The translations under genes and the position numbers were made by a program. Below are positions 57,029 through 64,000 of a stretch of DNA of 64,000 nt, piece after piece. This stretch comes from Phycisphaerales bacterium (GTDB lineage: Bacteria; Planctomycetota; Phycisphaerae; Phycisphaerales; UBA1924): positions 62,001-126,000 of the forward strand of contig JAHDXL010000007.1 in the NCBI GenBank assembly GCA_023382935.1, in the 5' to 3' direction. The notes beneath the pieces are model-generated. The model ran no database searches. It saw only the letters and a list, made by a program, of their open reading frames with translations, and had not been told where the DNA came from. Each line of letters begins with the position of its first letter. Position 1 is the stretch's first letter.

Positions 57029-58081
57029 CTACCGACCCTTCAGCGAAACCACCACGATCACCAGCACCACCACCAGCGCCAGCCCGACTCCGGCGCCAAT
57101 CTTCGCCCAGTTGCCTCCGCCCGTCCGTTCGGCCATCGGTATCACGTTCCCCCGACTGCTCACCAGTCCCGTCAGCACCACCCCAGCCGATTGCCCCGCC
57201 TCCGTCTGCCCCGCGAACACCCGCATCGCGCCCATCTCGCTGGCCTGCATCCCCTGCGCCGAAAGCCCGATCGCACTCGCGCTCCCCGCGTTCTCCGGCA
57301 CCAGCACCGACAGCGCCGATGTCGGCGCTACCGACCCGAACTCCAACGCCACCCTGTCCCCCGACACCGGAACCTCATACGAATACCGGAACGTCACCCG
57401 CTCGGGCATCAGCGGCATCTGCACCCCCAGCACCCCGCCCTCGAACGCCGTGCAACACCACCCGTGAAAACCCGCGTCCAGGTTCACTCGGTCCGCCCCC
57501 GCCGGAAGCGCCAGCCGCACCGTCGTCCGATTCCCACGTCCATCCACCGGCCCTCCCAGCCAGGTGCGATCGCCCATGTTCTCCACCACCACCGTCTCCG
57601 ACACCACCACGCTCTGCGCCCCGGGAGAAGCGATCGCCTGCCGCATCGCCACCCGCCACGTTGGCTCCGTCTCCGTCACGTCATACACCGTGATATCTAT
57701 GGACGCGTTCGGGTTCTCCGCCGTCATCTCCGGTCCAAACTCCTGGTATGTCACCCCCGCAAACCCGATCTGCACCAGAGGTCGAACCCCGATCGCCACC
57801 GGAACATCCGTCACCATCACCATCCCGTTCTCATCCAGCAGCGCATTCACCTGCCTGATCGGCTGCCCCCGGTGCATCAACTGCACGCTGATCGCCGCGC
57901 CGCCCGGAGAGCTCCCCTCCTTCGTCCCCTGCGTCGCGCGCACCATCAAACTGCCCTTCGGCCCCAGGTCGAGCATGCGCTGAATCTCCGGCGGCAGCAC
58001 CTCCTGCGCCACACTCACGCCACATGCGCACACCAACCAGGCCGCCCCCAGCCACGCCATCCATCGCATCGCTCGACGCAT
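57029..58081 (-). CDS. Exported membrane-anchored protein of unknown function in the ccm operon
   Basis: A 350-residue protein with a signal peptide (about 1-25, ending VSVAQE) and a C-terminal helix (GAGVGLALVVVLVIVVVSL) followed by KGR. The exposed part is beta-rich, first resembling a carboxypeptidase-regulatory-like sandwich, and contains an adjacent Cys pair in FHGWCCTAF. I recognise no ccm family. It lies between ccmF and ccmA with gaps of 12 and 18 bases, so it is co-transcribed. It could stand in for the missing CcmH/CcmI functions, but that is inference. Confidence 0.7.
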   Translation of the reverse strand: MRRAMRWMAWLGAAWLVCACGVSVAQEVLPPEIQRMLDLGPKGSLMVRATQGTKEGSSPGGAAISVQLMHRGQPIRQVNALLDENGMVMVTDVPVAIGVRPLVQIGFAGVTYQEFGPEMTAENPNASIDITVYDVTETEPTWRVAMRQAIASPGAQSVVVSETVVVENMGDRTWLGGPVDGRGNRTTVRLALPAGADRVNLDAGFHGWCCTAFEGGVLGVQMPLMPERVTFRYSYEVPVSGDRVALEFGSVAPTSALSVLVPENAGSASAIGLSAQGMQASEMGAMRVFAGQTEAGQSAGVVLTGLVSSRGNVIPMAERTGGGNWAKIGAGVGLALVVVLVIVVVSLKGR

Positions 58082-58093
58082 CCCGGTCTCCGT

Positions 58094-60076
58094 TCATCCG
58101 CGCGAGCCGGCAGCGCTCCACGCGCCTGACGGCTCGACCTCTGCCACGCTCGCCCGCCGCGAAACACTCCGCGCCGGTCGCGGCAGCATAGACCCCGCCC
58201 CGCCCAGCGCCATCAGACCCGCGCCCGCCCAGATCCAACTCGTCAGCGGGTTCACGTGCACCGCGATTGACGCAGCCGTCCCGCCCACCGTCCATCCCAA
58301 CAGCGCCACAGACACGTCCTCGTCCAGCCCCGATCGCACCGACACTTCCGTCGAGGCCTCCCTGAACCGCTCATAAAACCTCTGCTGAGGCCGCAACTCC
58401 GCTTCACGTCCGTCTCCACGCCGTACCCGCACCACTGCCTCGCCGGCCTCCCATCCCTCTCCACGCACCCTCCGCAACTCCTCCAGCACCAGCGTGTACT
58501 GCCCGATCGTCACCGACTCGCCCGGCCCCAGCCGTGTCGTCGTCTGCTCCGCAAACACGCTCGACCCCGCCACCCCTGTTGCCAGCAGCCCCATTCCCAC
58601 ATGCGCCGCCAGACTCCAGCACCGGCCGCTCCCGCCCGACCCGCGGATGTTCGGGCGGGGGGTTCGGCTTCCTCCCGCCGTTCTCCACCCCTCAAACCCC
58701 GCGCTGCCCACCACCATCCCGCACACACCCGCACACGCCATGAATCGCCAATCGATCAATCCCGTCACCGCGGCCGCTACCACCGCCCCCGCCGCGCCGC
58801 CGGCCATCCACCACGCACGCGCCGCGCGTGCCTCTCGCGCCAACTCCGCCGCACCCATCAACCCCATCAGCACCACCGCCAGCGGCAGCACCGTGCGCCC
58901 GTAATACGCCGGGCCCACGATCGCCGCATCACCCGTCGCGCCGCTCAGCAATGGCAGCACCGTTCCCGCCAGCGTGGCGCCTGCCATCGCCACCAGCACC
59001 CACAGACCCGCGTGAATCACTCCCTCCACGCTCCACGCGCGGATCGCGCCGCCGCTCAACGCCTTTCGCCGCGCCACCAGCACCGACGCCCCGCCTCCGC
59101 CCACGCCCGCGAGCAGCCCGAAAAACGCCAGCCCCACGCTCGATTGCGCAAACGCATGCACCGACTGCAACAGCCCGCTCCGCGTCAGCGCCGTTCCCAG
59201 CACACACAGGGAAAACGTCCCCACCGAAAGCCACGCCACCCAGCCCGAAAACCCGCCGTGCTTCCGATGCGCCACCATCGCATGCACCAGCGCCAGCCCC
59301 GTCAGCCACGGCGCCAGCGACGCGTTCTCCACCGGATCCCACGCCCAGTATCCGCCCCAGCCCAGTTCCACATACGCCCACCACGCCCCCAGCGCCATCC
59401 CCAGCGAAAGACACACCCAGGCAAAAATCGCCCACCGCCGCAACTCAAGTGTCTGGCGGATGACTGGACCGGTCCGCGTCGTGCCGGCAATGTCGGTCTT
59501 CGAACGTTGCTGCACCAACCCACCGAAGACCATCGCCATCGGCACCGCAAACCCCGCATACCCCATGAACAACAGCGGGGGATGCAGCGCCATCGCCCAG
59601 TGCCGCAGCATCGGGTTCATTCCCGAGCCGTCCATCGACCCCGCCCGTGTTTCGAACGGGTTGGCCGCGAACACCAGCAGCCCCGCGAAGAAAACCACGA
59701 TGCCTCCCAGCACCGCCACGCTCACGCCCTCGCGCGCCCTCCACGCATGCACGCTGCTCATCAGCGCCAGCATCAGCGCCCACAGCAGGATGCTCCCCTC
59801 CTGCCCGGCCCAGAAAGCGCTCAACCGGGCCAGCACGCCCAGCGACCGATCCGTGTGCGCAAACACGTATGCATTCGTGAAATCGTGCGACAACAGCATC
59901 CACGCCAGCAACGCCGACGCGCCTAGGAGCAACGCGGCGCCGAGCACCGTCGCGCCCCGCGCCCGCGCCAGCCAGCGTTCTTCGCCCGTCTGCCACGCCG
60001 CCAGCCCGCTTGCCGCCGCCCCCGCCCACGCGACCGTCGCTCCGCTTAGGCACAAACTGCCCAGCAACCCGGTCAC
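58094..60076 (-). CDS. ccmF: Cytochrome c heme lyase CcmF
   Basis: A 660-residue, multi-helix membrane protein that joins heme to apocytochrome c. It has the WWD motif (WGGYWAWDPVENASLAPWL) and conserved histidines in MALHPPLLFMGY and VHAMVAHRKHGG. The periplasmic C-terminal domain is typical (TIGQYTLVLEEL). GTG 60076 overlaps the ccmE stop (GTGA) and begins the first helix; longer starts would extend into ccmE. Confidence 0.95.
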   Translation of the reverse strand: MTGLLGSLCLSGATVAWAGAAASGLAAWQTGEERWLARARGATVLGAALLLGASALLAWMLLSHDFTNAYVFAHTDRSLGVLARLSAFWAGQEGSILLWALMLALMSSVHAWRAREGVSVAVLGGIVVFFAGLLVFAANPFETRAGSMDGSGMNPMLRHWAMALHPPLLFMGYAGFAVPMAMVFGGLVQQRSKTDIAGTTRTGPVIRQTLELRRWAIFAWVCLSLGMALGAWWAYVELGWGGYWAWDPVENASLAPWLTGLALVHAMVAHRKHGGFSGWVAWLSVGTFSLCVLGTALTRSGLLQSVHAFAQSSVGLAFFGLLAGVGGGGASVLVARRKALSGGAIRAWSVEGVIHAGLWVLVAMAGATLAGTVLPLLSGATGDAAIVGPAYYGRTVLPLAVVLMGLMGAAELAREARAARAWWMAGGAAGAVVAAAVTGLIDWRFMACAGVCGMVVGSAGFEGWRTAGGSRTPRPNIRGSGGSGRCWSLAAHVGMGLLATGVAGSSVFAEQTTTRLGPGESVTIGQYTLVLEELRRVRGEGWEAGEAVVRVRRGDGREAELRPQQRFYERFREASTEVSVRSGLDEDVSVALLGWTVGGTAASIAVHVNPLTSWIWAGAGLMALGGAGSMLPRPARSVSRRASVAEVEPSGAWSAAGSRG

Positions 60077-60468
60077 GGCACCGGCTCCGAACGGCTCTGA
60101 TACTTGCTGGCGCACTTGGTGAGCAGCACGTCGGCCACGAAGACCCCGTCCGCGCTCAGCGACCCCTCGACGATCACCTCGCGTCCTTCCTCAAACATGT
60201 CCGGGATCGCGCCCTCATACCGCACCGGCATGCCCGCGCCGCCCCCAGACATCTCGAATCGGGCCCAAAGCCCCACCCGGTCCATCTCCACCGACCCCTT
60301 ACGCACCACCCCGTGCACCCGCACCCGCTGCCCGACTCGCTCCTCCATGCAGGTCGCTACGTCGACGTAGTACACCCATCCGCCCCGCGCGCCCGCATAC
60401 CCCAGGTACGCCACGCTCAACGCGATCGCGCCCACGCCGACCAACAGTTTCCCCGGTCGAATCCCCAT
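60073..60468 (-). CDS. ccmE: Heme chaperone CcmE, cysteine (CxxxY) variant
   Basis: A 131-residue protein with one N-terminal anchor helix (LLVGVGAIALSVAYLGYAG) and an OB-fold. In classic CcmE heme binds covalently to His in the HxxxY motif near the C-terminus; here the matching segment is LLTKCASKY, with Cys119 and Tyr123. The CxxxY form is known from 'System I*' in sulfate reducers and archaea, usually without CcmH. Consistent with that, no ccmH or ccmI is found here. It heads the ccm operon. ATG 60468 is chosen over GTG 60474. Confidence 0.92.
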   Translation of the reverse strand: MGIRPGKLLVGVGAIALSVAYLGYAGARGGWVYYVDVATCMEERVGQRVRVHGVVRKGSVEMDRVGLWARFEMSGGGAGMPVRYEGAIPDMFEEGREVIVEGSLSADGVFVADVLLTKCASKYQSRSEPVP

Positions 60469-60695
60469 GCGCACTCAAGGCCTCGCCCACACTTGAGCAA
60501 TGCCGATGCCACCCACACCCCTCCCAGTCGGCCTCGCCAGGTCTACAACCGCCCTCAACACCCGCCGGACGCGCCGAGCACGAGGCTTCAGCGCCTCGCC
60601 CGTGCCAAGAAAACGCCAAATCTTCCCCTATTCTCATAATTGAGACGGGAAAGGTCCGAGATCTACCCAAATATGAGAACTGTATCCAGAATGCC

Positions 60696-61547
60696 TCAAT
60701 AGTCGTGACACGACAGGCACAGCGCGCTGCGCATGTTGCTCATCACCAGCAACCCATCATGCTGGCTGAACACGCTGTGACACGAGCCGCACCCCACCGT
60801 TCCGTCGAACAGCCTCACTCGCTTGTCCAGCGACTGTACCGGCTTCAGCGGGATCGCATCCCGTCCTTTCCTCGCCTTGTAGGACACCCCGATCGGGTGC
60901 TCCTGCCGACTCCCATGCTCGAACAGATCCCCCGTTCGCCGTTCACCCACCTTGGTTGCGGTGGACCCGTCGTGACACTCGAGGCAACCCTGCGACTCGG
61001 CGTCGATCCGCTCAAAGCCACCCCGGGACATCGCCGGCCGTGGGTTCTCGTGCGGTCCGCGACGCTCCCATTGCAGGTGCGCTTTGCCCACCCCCATCGC
61101 ATGGGCGTCACGCGAACCGGCGAAGGTGCGCTCGTGGCATTGCACGCAAAGCCCCGCCGATGAGGCAATCCCCCCACGCAGCATCGGATCGCCCGAAGCG
61201 CGAGCCTGGGAGTGCAGGGCCGAACTCGAGTCATCGTGACAGGTCACGCAGGTCATCGTCCCATTCTGGAGAGGAAGCGAACTGGGCACCTGCATGTTCG
61301 CCCGCACGTTCACGGGGTGAGAGAACGTCGCGCTCGGTACGTGGCAGCCGTTGCAGTTGGAGTCGGTCCAGGGAAGTGACCCGGTCCCGCCCATCATGCT
61401 GCCTCCGGGGATTGCCTCGGGCCGCTCCGCCTGGGCAGGGCGGGTCGCCAGCAAGCCCCCTAGTCCGGAGAGGATCCCGACCGCCCAGACTCGCGCCAGC
61501 AGGTTGCCGCGCGAGCGCACCCTCAAACCGAATCTGAACAAGGTCAT
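60696..61547 (-). CDS. Hexaheme c-type cytochrome
   Basis: A 283-residue exported protein with a signal peptide (about 1-38, ending RPAQA). Six CxxCH heme sites: CNGCH, CVTCH, CVQCH, CLECH, CGSCH and CLSCH, the last near the C-terminus. Extra His residues (SHPVNV, EHPIGV) can serve as distal ligands. Similar to doubled-CxxCH cytochromes used in respiratory electron transfer. GGAGGAG supports ATG 61547. It is divergent from the tetraheme genes and 228 bases upstream of ccmE on the same strand. Confidence 0.92.
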   Translation of the reverse strand: MTLFRFGLRVRSRGNLLARVWAVGILSGLGGLLATRPAQAERPEAIPGGSMMGGTGSLPWTDSNCNGCHVPSATFSHPVNVRANMQVPSSLPLQNGTMTCVTCHDDSSSALHSQARASGDPMLRGGIASSAGLCVQCHERTFAGSRDAHAMGVGKAHLQWERRGPHENPRPAMSRGGFERIDAESQGCLECHDGSTATKVGERRTGDLFEHGSRQEHPIGVSYKARKGRDAIPLKPVQSLDKRVRLFDGTVGCGSCHSVFSQHDGLLVMSNMRSALCLSCHDY

Positions 61548-61630
61548 CCACTCCTCCTCACGCAATGCCCGACTTGGGGGGAGATTCGACGCGGAGGATG
61601 GGCGACTTGAGCCAACTGACACGAATTAAA

Positions 61631-61646
61631 CCACCAAAAACGGTGG
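61631..61646. promoter_or_regulatory. Inverted repeat upstream of the first tetraheme cytochrome gene
   Basis: CCACC-AAAAAC-GGTGG, a perfect 5-bp inverted repeat followed by ATGT, lies about 65 bases upstream of the sigma-54-like element at 61710. A near match, TCACC-CAAAACA-GGTGG, occurs at 62554. Both could bind the same activator. Confidence 0.5.
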
Positions 61647-61709
61647 ATGTCGTCCGATTCTTCTTCGGATCGTTGGCAGACCTCGGACCAGGCGCCTTAT
61701 TACAGATAT

Positions 61710-61725
61710 AGGCATGCGTATTGCA
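61710..61725 (+). promoter_or_regulatory. Sigma-54-like promoter of the first tetraheme gene
   Basis: AGGCATGCGTATTGCA matches the -24/-12 form TGGCAC-N5-TTGCA at most positions; the invariant GG (61711) and GC (61723) are 12 bases apart. Expected transcription start about 61735, giving a leader of about 110 bases that contains a GGCCGC/GCGGCC hairpin (61765-61781). Confidence 0.55.
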
Positions 61726-61845
61726 GTGGATTTGGGGAGTTACCCACTGGGTGACACAGACCTCGGCCGCTGCCTGCGGCCTGTAAACAGGGGTTTCGCC
61801 CCGGCACGGACGTGGAGCGAGTCTCCCCATCGTCGGAGGTTTGCC

Positions 61846-62496
61846 ATGCCAAAGAGCAGCCATGTGTTTGCGGCGATCGGCGTTCTGCTGAGTCTGGGCA
61901 ATCCCGCACGAGCCCAGTTCAACCCCATGGAGCAGCCGCGTGTCGGGGGGATCGTCGGTTCCAAACATGACTTCTCATCAATGGCCTGGTCGGGCGGCGA
62001 GATCTGCAAGCCCTGCCACACGCCTCACTTTGCGATGGCGAATCTGCCGCGTCTGTGGAACCACACCATGTCGTCGGCCACCTACACCCTGCACGATGGC
62101 TCGGGCGGGCAGGAAGACTTCGATGTGGGTACGCGCATGTGCTTGTCCTGCCACGATGGAACGGTGGCTCTGGACAGTTTTGGCGGGCAAGTTGGGTCCA
62201 GTTTCATCCCGGCGCGATTTCGACTTGGAACGGACCTGAGCGACGACCATCCGATCGGGGCCGAGGCTCAATATCCCCCGAGTCCTCAGCCGAGTTGGTG
62301 GGCCGGTGCCTTCCGCGACCCATCGCAGATCCCCGCGGCCCTTCCACTCAAGGAGTGGATTGATGGCGGCGGGCAGCCTCGCATGGTGGTCTCGTGCCTG
62401 TCGTGTCACAACCCGCACCGTCAGAGCGGGTATCCGCATCTGCTGAACATGCGGAACGTGGCCAGCGCAATCTGCCTGGGGTGCCACATCAAGTGA
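61846..62496 (+). CDS. Tetraheme c-type cytochrome
   Basis: A 216-residue exported protein. The signal peptide (MPKSSHVFAAIGVLLSLGNPARA) is followed by four CxxCH sites: CKPCH, CLSCH, CLSCH and CLGCH at the C-terminus. The mature start SKHDFSSMAWSGGEICKPCHTP repeats almost exactly in the protein at 62833, so they are paralogues. The HDFS...CxxCHTPH opening is typical of doubled-CxxCH cytochromes. GGAGG precedes ATG 61846. Likely function is electron transfer in the periplasm or at the surface. Confidence 0.93.
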   Translation: MPKSSHVFAAIGVLLSLGNPARAQFNPMEQPRVGGIVGSKHDFSSMAWSGGEICKPCHTPHFAMANLPRLWNHTMSSATYTLHDGSGGQEDFDVGTRMCLSCHDGTVALDSFGGQVGSSFIPARFRLGTDLSDDHPIGAEAQYPPSPQPSWWAGAFRDPSQIPAALPLKEWIDGGGQPRMVVSCLSCHNPHRQSGYPHLLNMRNVASAICLGCHIK

Positions 62497-62553
62497 GTGT
62501 CGTTCACCCGGGTTTCGTGCCGGAGATATGTCCTGCGCAGATGAGAGAAGGAA

Positions 62554-62570
62554 TCACCCAAAACAGGTGG
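62554..62570. promoter_or_regulatory. Inverted-repeat-like site upstream of the second tetraheme gene
   Basis: TCACC-CAAAACA-GGTGG (spacer seven) resembles the site at 61631 (CCACC-AAAAAC-GGTGG), including the A-rich centre and the trailing AT. It lies about 142 bases upstream of the sigma-54-like element at 62711. Confidence 0.45.
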
Positions 62571-62710
62571 ATTGTGCATGCATGTGAACGTGGGAAAGCA
62601 CGTCCTATTGATGAGAGGATTAGTGGGTCAACAATTCTCAAATCAGAGAGATGGGTCTGAAAAAGGGGCGTGGCGGAGGCCCCAGGGCGGGTAAGTCGCC
62701 AAAAGGACAT

Positions 62711-62726
62711 TGGCATCCGAGTTGCA
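62711..62726 (+). promoter_or_regulatory. Sigma-54-like promoter of the second tetraheme gene
   Basis: TGGCATCCGAGTTGCA is a strong match to TGGCAC-N5-TTGCA, with GG at 62712 and GC at 62724, 12 bases apart. Expected start about 62736, leaving a leader near 97 bases, similar to the first tetraheme gene. Confidence 0.65.
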
Positions 62727-62832
62727 TGATGGATCTGTCGGACTGGAACGGTGCCGGCAACGAGAAGCGGGAACAGGCACCCAACAACAAACCCTTGGAA
62801 GTTCGCAAGCAGTATGAGAAAGAGGTGTGACA

Positions 62833-63423
62833 ATGAAGGCCAAATCCGTGTTAATGTCCGCAGCGGTCGCCCTGCTGGCTTCGGGTGCAAGCGCCCAAAT
62901 CGTCGGTTCGGCGCATGACTTCTCATCGATGGCATGGTCGGGCGGCGAAATCTGCAAACCCTGCCATACTCCGCACTTCGCGATGCCGGGCCTGCCGCGC
63001 CTGTGGAACCACGAGATGTCGACGGCGACCTACACGATGCATGACGCAGCCGGCACTCAGGACGACCTGGACGAACGCAGCCGCCTGTGCCTGTCCTGCC
63101 ACGACGGAACGGTGGCGCTGGACAGCTACGGCGGGATGACGGGCACCAGCTACATCCCGTCATCGGCGAACATCGGGACCGACCTGACGAATGACCACCC
63201 GATCGGTGCGGACGCGATCTATCCGGACACCTCGACACGCTTCCATCCCCCGAGCAGCCTGCCGTCCTCGATGCGCCTGCGTCCATGGACGGACTCGAGC
63301 GGCGTGACGCGCAACGTGGTGTCGTGCGGCACGTGCCATACGGCCCACAACCGTGGCTTCCCGCACATGCTGAACATCAGCAACTCGGCGTCGGCCCTGT
63401 GCCTGGCGTGCCACATCAAGTGA
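62833..63423 (+). CDS. Tetraheme c-type cytochrome, paralogue of the preceding one
   Basis: A 196-residue exported protein with signal peptide (MKAKSVLMSAAVALLASGASA) and four heme sites: CKPCH, CLSCH, CGTCH and CLACH. It shares blocks with the gene at 61846 (HDFSSMAWSGGEICKPCHTP, PRLWNH, CLSCHDGTVALDS, DHPIGA and the CHIK end). It lacks about 20 residues near the third heme. The two arose by tandem duplication. A strong terminator follows. Confidence 0.93.
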   Translation: MKAKSVLMSAAVALLASGASAQIVGSAHDFSSMAWSGGEICKPCHTPHFAMPGLPRLWNHEMSTATYTMHDAAGTQDDLDERSRLCLSCHDGTVALDSYGGMTGTSYIPSSANIGTDLTNDHPIGADAIYPDTSTRFHPPSSLPSSMRLRPWTDSSGVTRNVVSCGTCHTAHNRGFPHMLNISNSASALCLACHIK

Positions 63424-63465
63424 GTTGATTCCGTCGCCAGACGGGTGAAAGCCGATAGGCTTGGG

Positions 63466-63516
63466 GCCGCCCGCGGCAGACCTTACGAGGTCGCCCTGCG
63501 GGCGGCTTTCTTTTTT
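63466..63516 (+). terminator. Intrinsic terminator after the second tetraheme gene
   Basis: A perfect 9-bp stem GCCGCCCGC (63466-63474) / GCGGGCGGC (63498-63506) is followed by TTTCTTTTTT. It lies 43 bases after the cytochrome stop codon. Confidence 0.9.
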
Positions 63517-63632
63517 GCGCCCCGATCCAGTCCCTTCCAGCAGTGACTTGGGGTGCTGCGCGAGCCTGAGCCGATGGACAAGGGCAGGAAGACACCCCGG
63601 TTGACCAGGGGAGTTTGCGCAGATTCACGCAA

Positions 63633-63648
63633 TGGCACGGGATTTGAT
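63633..63648 (+). promoter_or_regulatory. Sigma-54-like promoter of the lipoprotein gene
   Basis: TGGCACGGGATTTGAT has a perfect -24 half (TGGCACG) and a -12 half TTGAT in place of TTGCA. GG at 63634 and GA at 63646 are 12 bases apart. Expected start about 63658, 23 bases before the ATG. Confidence 0.55.
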
Positions 63649-63680
63649 AACCTCTTTGTCAGCAATTCGGGGAGCCGCAG

Positions 63681-64000
63681 ATGAATGGATGCAGAGGAAG
63701 ATTCTGGAGCGTCGCGGGCCGATTGATGTTGGGGCTGTGCCTTTCGGCACTGTTGGGTGCCGGGGTCGGCTGCGAAACGGCCCAGAAGCCGAAGACTGAA
63801 AAGACCGGGGTGAGCGGGAGTTACGCGTTCTGGCCCTTTGGCAACATCGAGCCACGGGTGCAGTACGTCCGAACCTACGCCACGGCGTTTGATCTGACCA
63901 ACAAGAAGCAGTCGGCCTTTGACAAGGCAGTCTTCGGCGATGAGAACACTCCGGCCACTGCGATCAACAAGCCCTACGGCGTGGAGGCGAAAGACGGGCG
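63681..64000 (+). CDS. Lipoprotein, probable NHL/six-bladed propeller protein, 3' end cut
   Basis: The first 106 residues of an exported lipoprotein; the lipobox GAGVGC places the acylated Cys at residue 31. The opening of the mature part, FWPFGNIEPRVQYVRTY, resembles the WP...PRIQYL start of NHL-type beta-propeller proteins that accompany multiheme cytochromes in other bacteria. The window edge removes the propeller, so the assignment is tentative. GGGGAG precedes the ATG. It follows the tetraheme genes and has its own sigma-54-like element. Confidence 0.6.
   Translation, partial: MNGCRGRFWSVAGRLMLGLCLSALLGAGVGCETAQKPKTEKTGVSGSYAFWPFGNIEPRVQYVRTYATAFDLTNKKQSAFDKAVFGDENTPATAINKPYGVEAKDG

Follow-up and report, generated by a model that had tools for sequence, protein, structure and literature searches.

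A predicted two-component/σ54 regulon for extracellular electron transfer in a Phycisphaerales bacterium

Work on the RpoN (σ54) regulon of Geobacter sulfurreducens found omcB to be up in a strain overproducing RpoN (PMC2725144), and in the cytochrome OmcE one heme is ligated across subunits (PMC12307469). The undecaheme electron transfer (Uet) pathway of Tenderiales and Gallionella is outlined in PMC10734462, which cites Eddie et al. 2022. A survey of σ54 that includes the Planctomycetota gives predicted σ54 promoters and NtrC/ZraR-type regulators for planctomycetes (PMC12316311). Even in Geobacter, little is understood of how nanowire cytochromes are controlled, and for planctomycetes most of what is known of extracellular electron transfer comes from lists of genes. 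Here we analyse a multiheme cytochrome cluster that begins in a 64,000-nucleotide stretch of DNA, hereafter the window (C7:62001-126000, where C7 is this contig), of a Phycisphaerales genome of 3.72 Mb in 35 contigs; coordinates without prefix are window positions. The named relatives of the cluster are Phycisphaerales/Planctomycetota assemblies. Judged from sequence, the locus probably encodes a dedicated two-component/σ54 regulon for extracellular electron transfer that would join nanowire-type cytochromes, a conduit, heme attachment and feedback on the activator.

By extending the contig beyond the window and scanning it with Pfam, we find from left to right a minus-strand ccm operon (ccmE-ccmF-350-aa ORF-ccmA-ccmB-CcmC-like ORF), a minus-strand six-CXXCH cytochrome gene, the genes for tetraheme cytochromes A and B, and a gene for an NHL-repeat protein with a cytochrome segment (NHL-cytochrome). 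These are followed by an outer-membrane barrel of 659 residues, a second NHL protein, a cytochrome with 11 CXXCH motifs and a minus-strand pair encoding a multiheme and a NapC-like cytochrome, and then by a 200-aa protein (hyp200), an NtrC-type activator, a HAMP protein, a histidine kinase, ResB and CcsA. Within the window, ccmE, the first gene of its operon, occupies 60073-60474 (−), and the six-CXXCH gene, at 60696-61547 (−), is divergent from tetraheme A. Tetraheme A (61846-62496, +; 216 aa) and tetraheme B (62833-63423, +; 196 aa) are both OmcE-like, with four CXXCH motifs and a signal peptide assigned by eye. The NHL-repeat gene, with its doubled CXXCH, starts at 63681 (+) and its 658-aa frame leaves the window at 64000; a terminator-like hairpin between it and tetraheme B (63487-63509, +) fits a separate third promoter. 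While the NHL propeller and the lipoprotein-like doubled-CXXCH segment form a single frame here, the two align separately in many relatives. Between ccmF and ccmA lies the 350-aa ORF (57029-58081, −), which looks secreted and has no Pfam match.

The NHL-barrel-NHL-11-heme core is present in many phyla. An AlphaFold model of the barrel (18 orthologs; pLDDT 88.5) resembles large outer-membrane barrels, and MtrB (6r2q_B) is among its top structural matches by Foldseek/VIA (Z 16.9, rmsd 8.9, 423 aligned residues), tied with other barrels; we therefore do not single out MtrB as the best match.

A preliminary description of the window had reported three −24/−12 elements ahead of three successive plus-strand genes. 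All three are in the sequence: AGGCATGCGTATTGCA (61710-61725, +), 136 bp before the start of tetraheme A; TGGCATCCGAGTTGCA (62711-62726, +), 122 bp before that of tetraheme B; and TGGCACGGGATTTGAT (63633-63648, +), 48 bp before that of the NHL-cytochrome gene. The correct GG-GC spacing ascribed to all three is seen in the two tetraheme elements, but the third has GA at −12 in place of GC. When σ54 promoters were defined by GG at −24, GC at −12, correct spacing and the form TGGCAC-N5-TTGCW, the tetraheme A and B elements agreed and the NHL-cytochrome element agreed in part. So did, in full, a fourth element in the window that had been overlooked, TGGCATCGGCATTGCT (60511-60496, −), which matches the consensus perfectly 37 bp before ccmE; three more lie just beyond the window. 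With a σ54 matrix modelled on the published consensus, the best seven matches in 112 kb of contig all fall within the 18 kb of the cluster, at ccmE, tetraheme A, tetraheme B, the NHL-cytochrome gene, the NapC-like operon, the hyp200-activator operon and ResB. No σ70 promoters were found at 60400-64000. Genome-wide scans, both for σ54 elements and for the operator described below, were pattern searches. The exact sequence TGGCAYNNNNNTTGCW has 14 copies in the 3.72 Mb genome against 3 for its reversed control, and 3 of the 14 are in the cluster. Exact elements also stand, here with no palindrome, ahead of a RecR-like gene near rpoN and of DnaK-like and small heat-shock-like genes (L108, L114, L103; gene names given by eye).

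A family-wide search matched the cluster in 26 of 150 genomes. Promoter conservation was scored in 20 fetched relatives' loci and in this genome, counting elements with a matrix score of at least 12 within 300 bp of the gene start. Every tetraheme gene (23/23) has a −24/−12 element, 65-136 bp before its start, compared with none of 88 control regions upstream of barrel, second NHL, 11-heme, activator and six-heme genes. The six-heme gene lacks a σ54 site of its own in this genome and in all 14 upstream regions scored. Elements also precede ccmE (4/5), the NapC-like gene (6/9) and the hyp200-activator operon (11/14) in this set of loci. Thirteen of 21 NHL-cytochrome genes have one, mostly with TTGTA or TTGTT at −12; since the relatives share this TTGTW form, the odd −12 of the third site is a feature of its class. 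The three elements first reported are thus real, well above chance and conserved.

The preliminary description had proposed control by RpoN and a single activator, had named absence of rpoN from the genome as grounds for rejecting this, and had suggested seeking an activator gene to the right of the window. An intact rpoN is present (547-aa frame; Sigma54_DBD, E 5e-59; TIGR02395, 382.6 bits against a cut-off of 277; RpoN box ARRTVAKYR). The activator gene lies at C7:136551-137936, 10.6 kb past the window end. Its product has Response_reg, Sigma54_activat (AAA+) and HTH_8 (Fis-type HTH) domains and a GAFTGA loop in translation, and is by domain criteria an NtrC-type enhancer-binding protein. 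It is one of seven true σ54 activator genes in the genome. An ortholog of at least 64% identity occurs in 24 of the 150 family genomes, all 24 of which have cluster matches, and only two genomes with a cluster match lack it, one being an 83%-complete assembly and the other having only a weak match. A genome of the same genus (G033, 94% complete) has neither cluster nor activator, so the whole unit seems to be gained or lost together. Outside this family, but within the order, the activator ortholog is often found beside NapC-like/multiheme genes and palindrome-bearing σ54 sites. RpoN control with one dedicated activator is therefore well supported as a prediction by intact rpoN, conserved elements, co-occurrence, and the NtrC-type activator and histidine kinase in the cluster.

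The histidine kinase aligns along its whole length (residues 18-423) with the RegB/PrrB/ActS family model NF033792 (E 3.8e-29), but it scores 101.8 bits where the cut-off is 350, and we reject membership of that family. An invariant WTGGxxSP motif in its membrane part recalls the GGxxNPF motif of RegB. RegB/PrrB/ActS kinases are partnered by RegA, whereas the partner here is NtrC-type. As the score is far below the cut-off, quinone sensing is a suggestion only.

A de novo search for palindromic motifs in the relatives' tetraheme promoters, with our own genome excluded, returned the degenerate palindrome ATTCTCA-N4-TGAGAAT with 196 bits, against 53-68 bits in shuffled controls. It recurs ahead of the NapC-like, hyp200-activator and ccmE promoters. 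In the window, a candidate activator site, ATTCTCAAATCAGAGAGA, lies at 62634-62651, 77 bp before the tetraheme B element, and the ccmE promoter has two sites, ATTCTCATAATTGAGACG (60630-60647) and CTACCCAAATATGAGAAC (60663-60680), 33 bp apart; beyond it, palindromes at C7:135741 and C7:135774 lie between the NapC-like and activator operons. At the genome's own tetraheme A none is recognisable (best score 4.7-6.2), and none was found at its NHL-gene promoter, a promoter class that is without palindrome in nearly all genomes examined. Among the 14 exact σ54 sites of the genome, only the ccmE and tetraheme B elements have a strong palindrome at normal distance.

The positions of the palindrome are regular. 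Measured from the −26 base, its centres lie at about −47, −57, −70, −80, −89, −102 and −110, with a best period of 10.75 bp. Of the 47 spacings between paired sites, 25 amount to 30-33 bp, or three helical turns, tandem copies often being 31-32 bp apart. The phasing statistic (p ~3e-9) is indicative and approximate, as divergent promoters share sites, relatives are non-independent and the period was scanned. In held-out loci the palindrome was found at 10 of 20 σ54 sites (0.30 expected), and at activator-ortholog loci from other families at 9 of 33 (1.09 expected); in each case 0 of 500 permuted motifs reached the observed count. The operator is largely restricted to Phycisphaerales relatives and mostly absent from distant homologs of the cluster. 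At up to three mismatches its pattern has 648 matches in our genome, too loose for naming regulon members, and among the fetched own-genome loci combinations of σ54 element and operator outside the cluster are rare and for the most part weaker (L085, L113, L108). A perfect copy at C7:140506 lies in an unusual position, about 110 bp downstream of the ResB σ54 element (C7:140381-140523). We take ATTCTCA-N4-TGAGAAT to be the predicted site of the cluster's activator, to which it is tied by co-occurrence and autoregulatory position.

A different activator site had been proposed in the preliminary description, namely an inverted repeat ahead of both tetraheme genes. The repeats are there, CCACCAAAAACGGTGG (CCACC..GGTGG) at 61631-61646 and TCACC..GGTGG at 62554-62570, and the one at tetraheme A sits where a palindrome would be expected (about −79). 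However, they are missing from the relatives' promoters, their distance differs between tetraheme A and B, and they read weakly as hairpins. They also belong to a common class, with 527 inverted repeats of 5-bp arms and 4-8 nt loops in the window, and the genome scan that had been suggested for the repeat found near copies elsewhere at control level. We consider it very unlikely that they bind the activator. Still less credible is the notion that the −24/−12 elements match by chance in a G+C-rich genome and play no part as promoters. At up to two mismatches the consensus does no better than chance (34 matches in the window, 39 expected from shuffles), but when no more than one mismatch is allowed they gather in the cluster, and the retention of elements ahead of the same genes in 20 genomes is just the observation that would speak against such a reading.

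A more substantial question is which protein acts at these promoters. With six other σ54 activators in the genome, and with the tetraheme A and NHL promoters lacking a palindrome, a different or global activator might drive them, the cluster's activator being limited to its own or the NapC-like operon. We regard this as unlikely, given that the activator's own operon shares the palindrome with the NapC-like operon, ccmE and the tetraheme genes, that every activator-bearing genome has the cluster, and that the neighbourhoods of the activator in other families again show the palindrome at σ54 sites. It is also rather improbable, in our view, that the palindrome belongs to another regulator, such as a repressor responding to redox state or metals, while the activator binds elsewhere. 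The site is assigned to its protein by association only, which leaves room for such a regulator; yet sites 50-170 bp upstream, on one helical face and in tandem copies three turns apart, are typical enhancer sites, and overlap with the promoter would be more usual for a repressor.

The likely products of the regulon include relatives of OmcE. Tetraheme B matches 7TFS, the OmcE filament of Geobacter, with E 5.5e-16 (profile E 1.6e-26), and also matches 9YUQ. The four CXXCH motifs and H28, H48, H122 and H172 are invariant in 18 sequences and all align with their OmcE counterparts, so that homology over the full length, a signal peptide (by eye), four CXXCH motifs and four distal histidines are all seen. 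The N-terminal part of the 11-heme protein is likewise an OmcE-like domain. The AlphaFold model of the tetraheme protein (pLDDT 41.5) is unusable, and the case for filament formation is thus one of sequence. The tetraheme proteins are OmcE-family relatives and putative nanowire subunits. The two tetraheme genes of this genome do not form a sister pair, each grouping with sequences of different genera (moderate support), and the palindrome is kept by B only; in genome G134 (L071) the tetraheme gene was duplicated independently, and each copy has its own promoter.

In the dedicated regulon that we favour, the histidine kinase, with the neighbouring HAMP protein, would phosphorylate the cluster's NtrC-type response regulator, which may then occupy a single ATTCTCA-N4-TGAGAAT site or a pair of them, some 50-170 bp ahead of the −24/−12 promoters. 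The bound regulator would loop onto the RpoN-RNA polymerase and lead to promoter opening. RpoN-dependent transcription would in this way drive the OmcE-like tetrahemes, the NapC-like/multiheme operon and the ccm operon and, by positive feedback, the activator operon, while the promoter with the variant −12 may drive the operon of NHL-cytochrome, outer-membrane barrel, NHL protein and 11-heme cytochrome. The signal sensed and the direction of electron flow are conjectural. The earlier proposal of a respiratory regulon in a planctomycete is supported as to the regulon. With ccmE, the NapC-like cytochrome operon and the operon of the activator added, the regulon appears larger than the three promoters then listed, and an OmcE/Uet-like extracellular electron-transfer cluster describes its targets better than a generically respiratory one.

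More tentatively, and with slightly less than even confidence, we propose that across the Phycisphaerales a single two-component/σ54 switch, possibly redox-sensing via its RegB-like kinase, turns on nanowire, conduit and heme attachment together with activator feedback, and that the operator marks further electron-transfer operons in the order's other families. A defined operator, activator and gene set could serve to predict wire-making planctomycete genomes and to find further members of the regulon. One activator gene and one palindrome make it possible to test what triggers nanowire production.

The components of the system are of known kinds, and in the literature searched, which leaves many subscription papers outside, the circuit and its operator appear to be undescribed. 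The tetraheme proteins share with Geobacter sulfurreducens OmcE (7TFS) the heme number, the length class and homology over the whole length, but as remote homologs with many insertions and deletions, and their polymerisation is putative here. The cluster resembles the Uet pathway in its 11-heme cytochrome, extracellular tetraheme cytochrome, beta-barrel and two NHL-repeat proteins, a match of gene content with the description in PMC10734462 that covers these components and not the triheme UetDEG or the isomerase UetB. It differs from Uet in its planctomycete host, in the attachment of a NapC-like operon, a ccm operon and genes of an NtrC-type two-component system, and in its predicted σ54 control. 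The main text of the survey that includes the Planctomycetota (PMC12316311) does not contain the words "cytochrome" or "extracellular electron". As in the RpoN regulon of Geobacter (PMC2725144), σ54 is tied to cytochromes of extracellular electron transfer; that regulon is genome-wide, its link to cytochromes is not bound to one activator, and omcE is unmentioned there, whereas in the present genome a single cluster holds promoters, operator and a dedicated activator.
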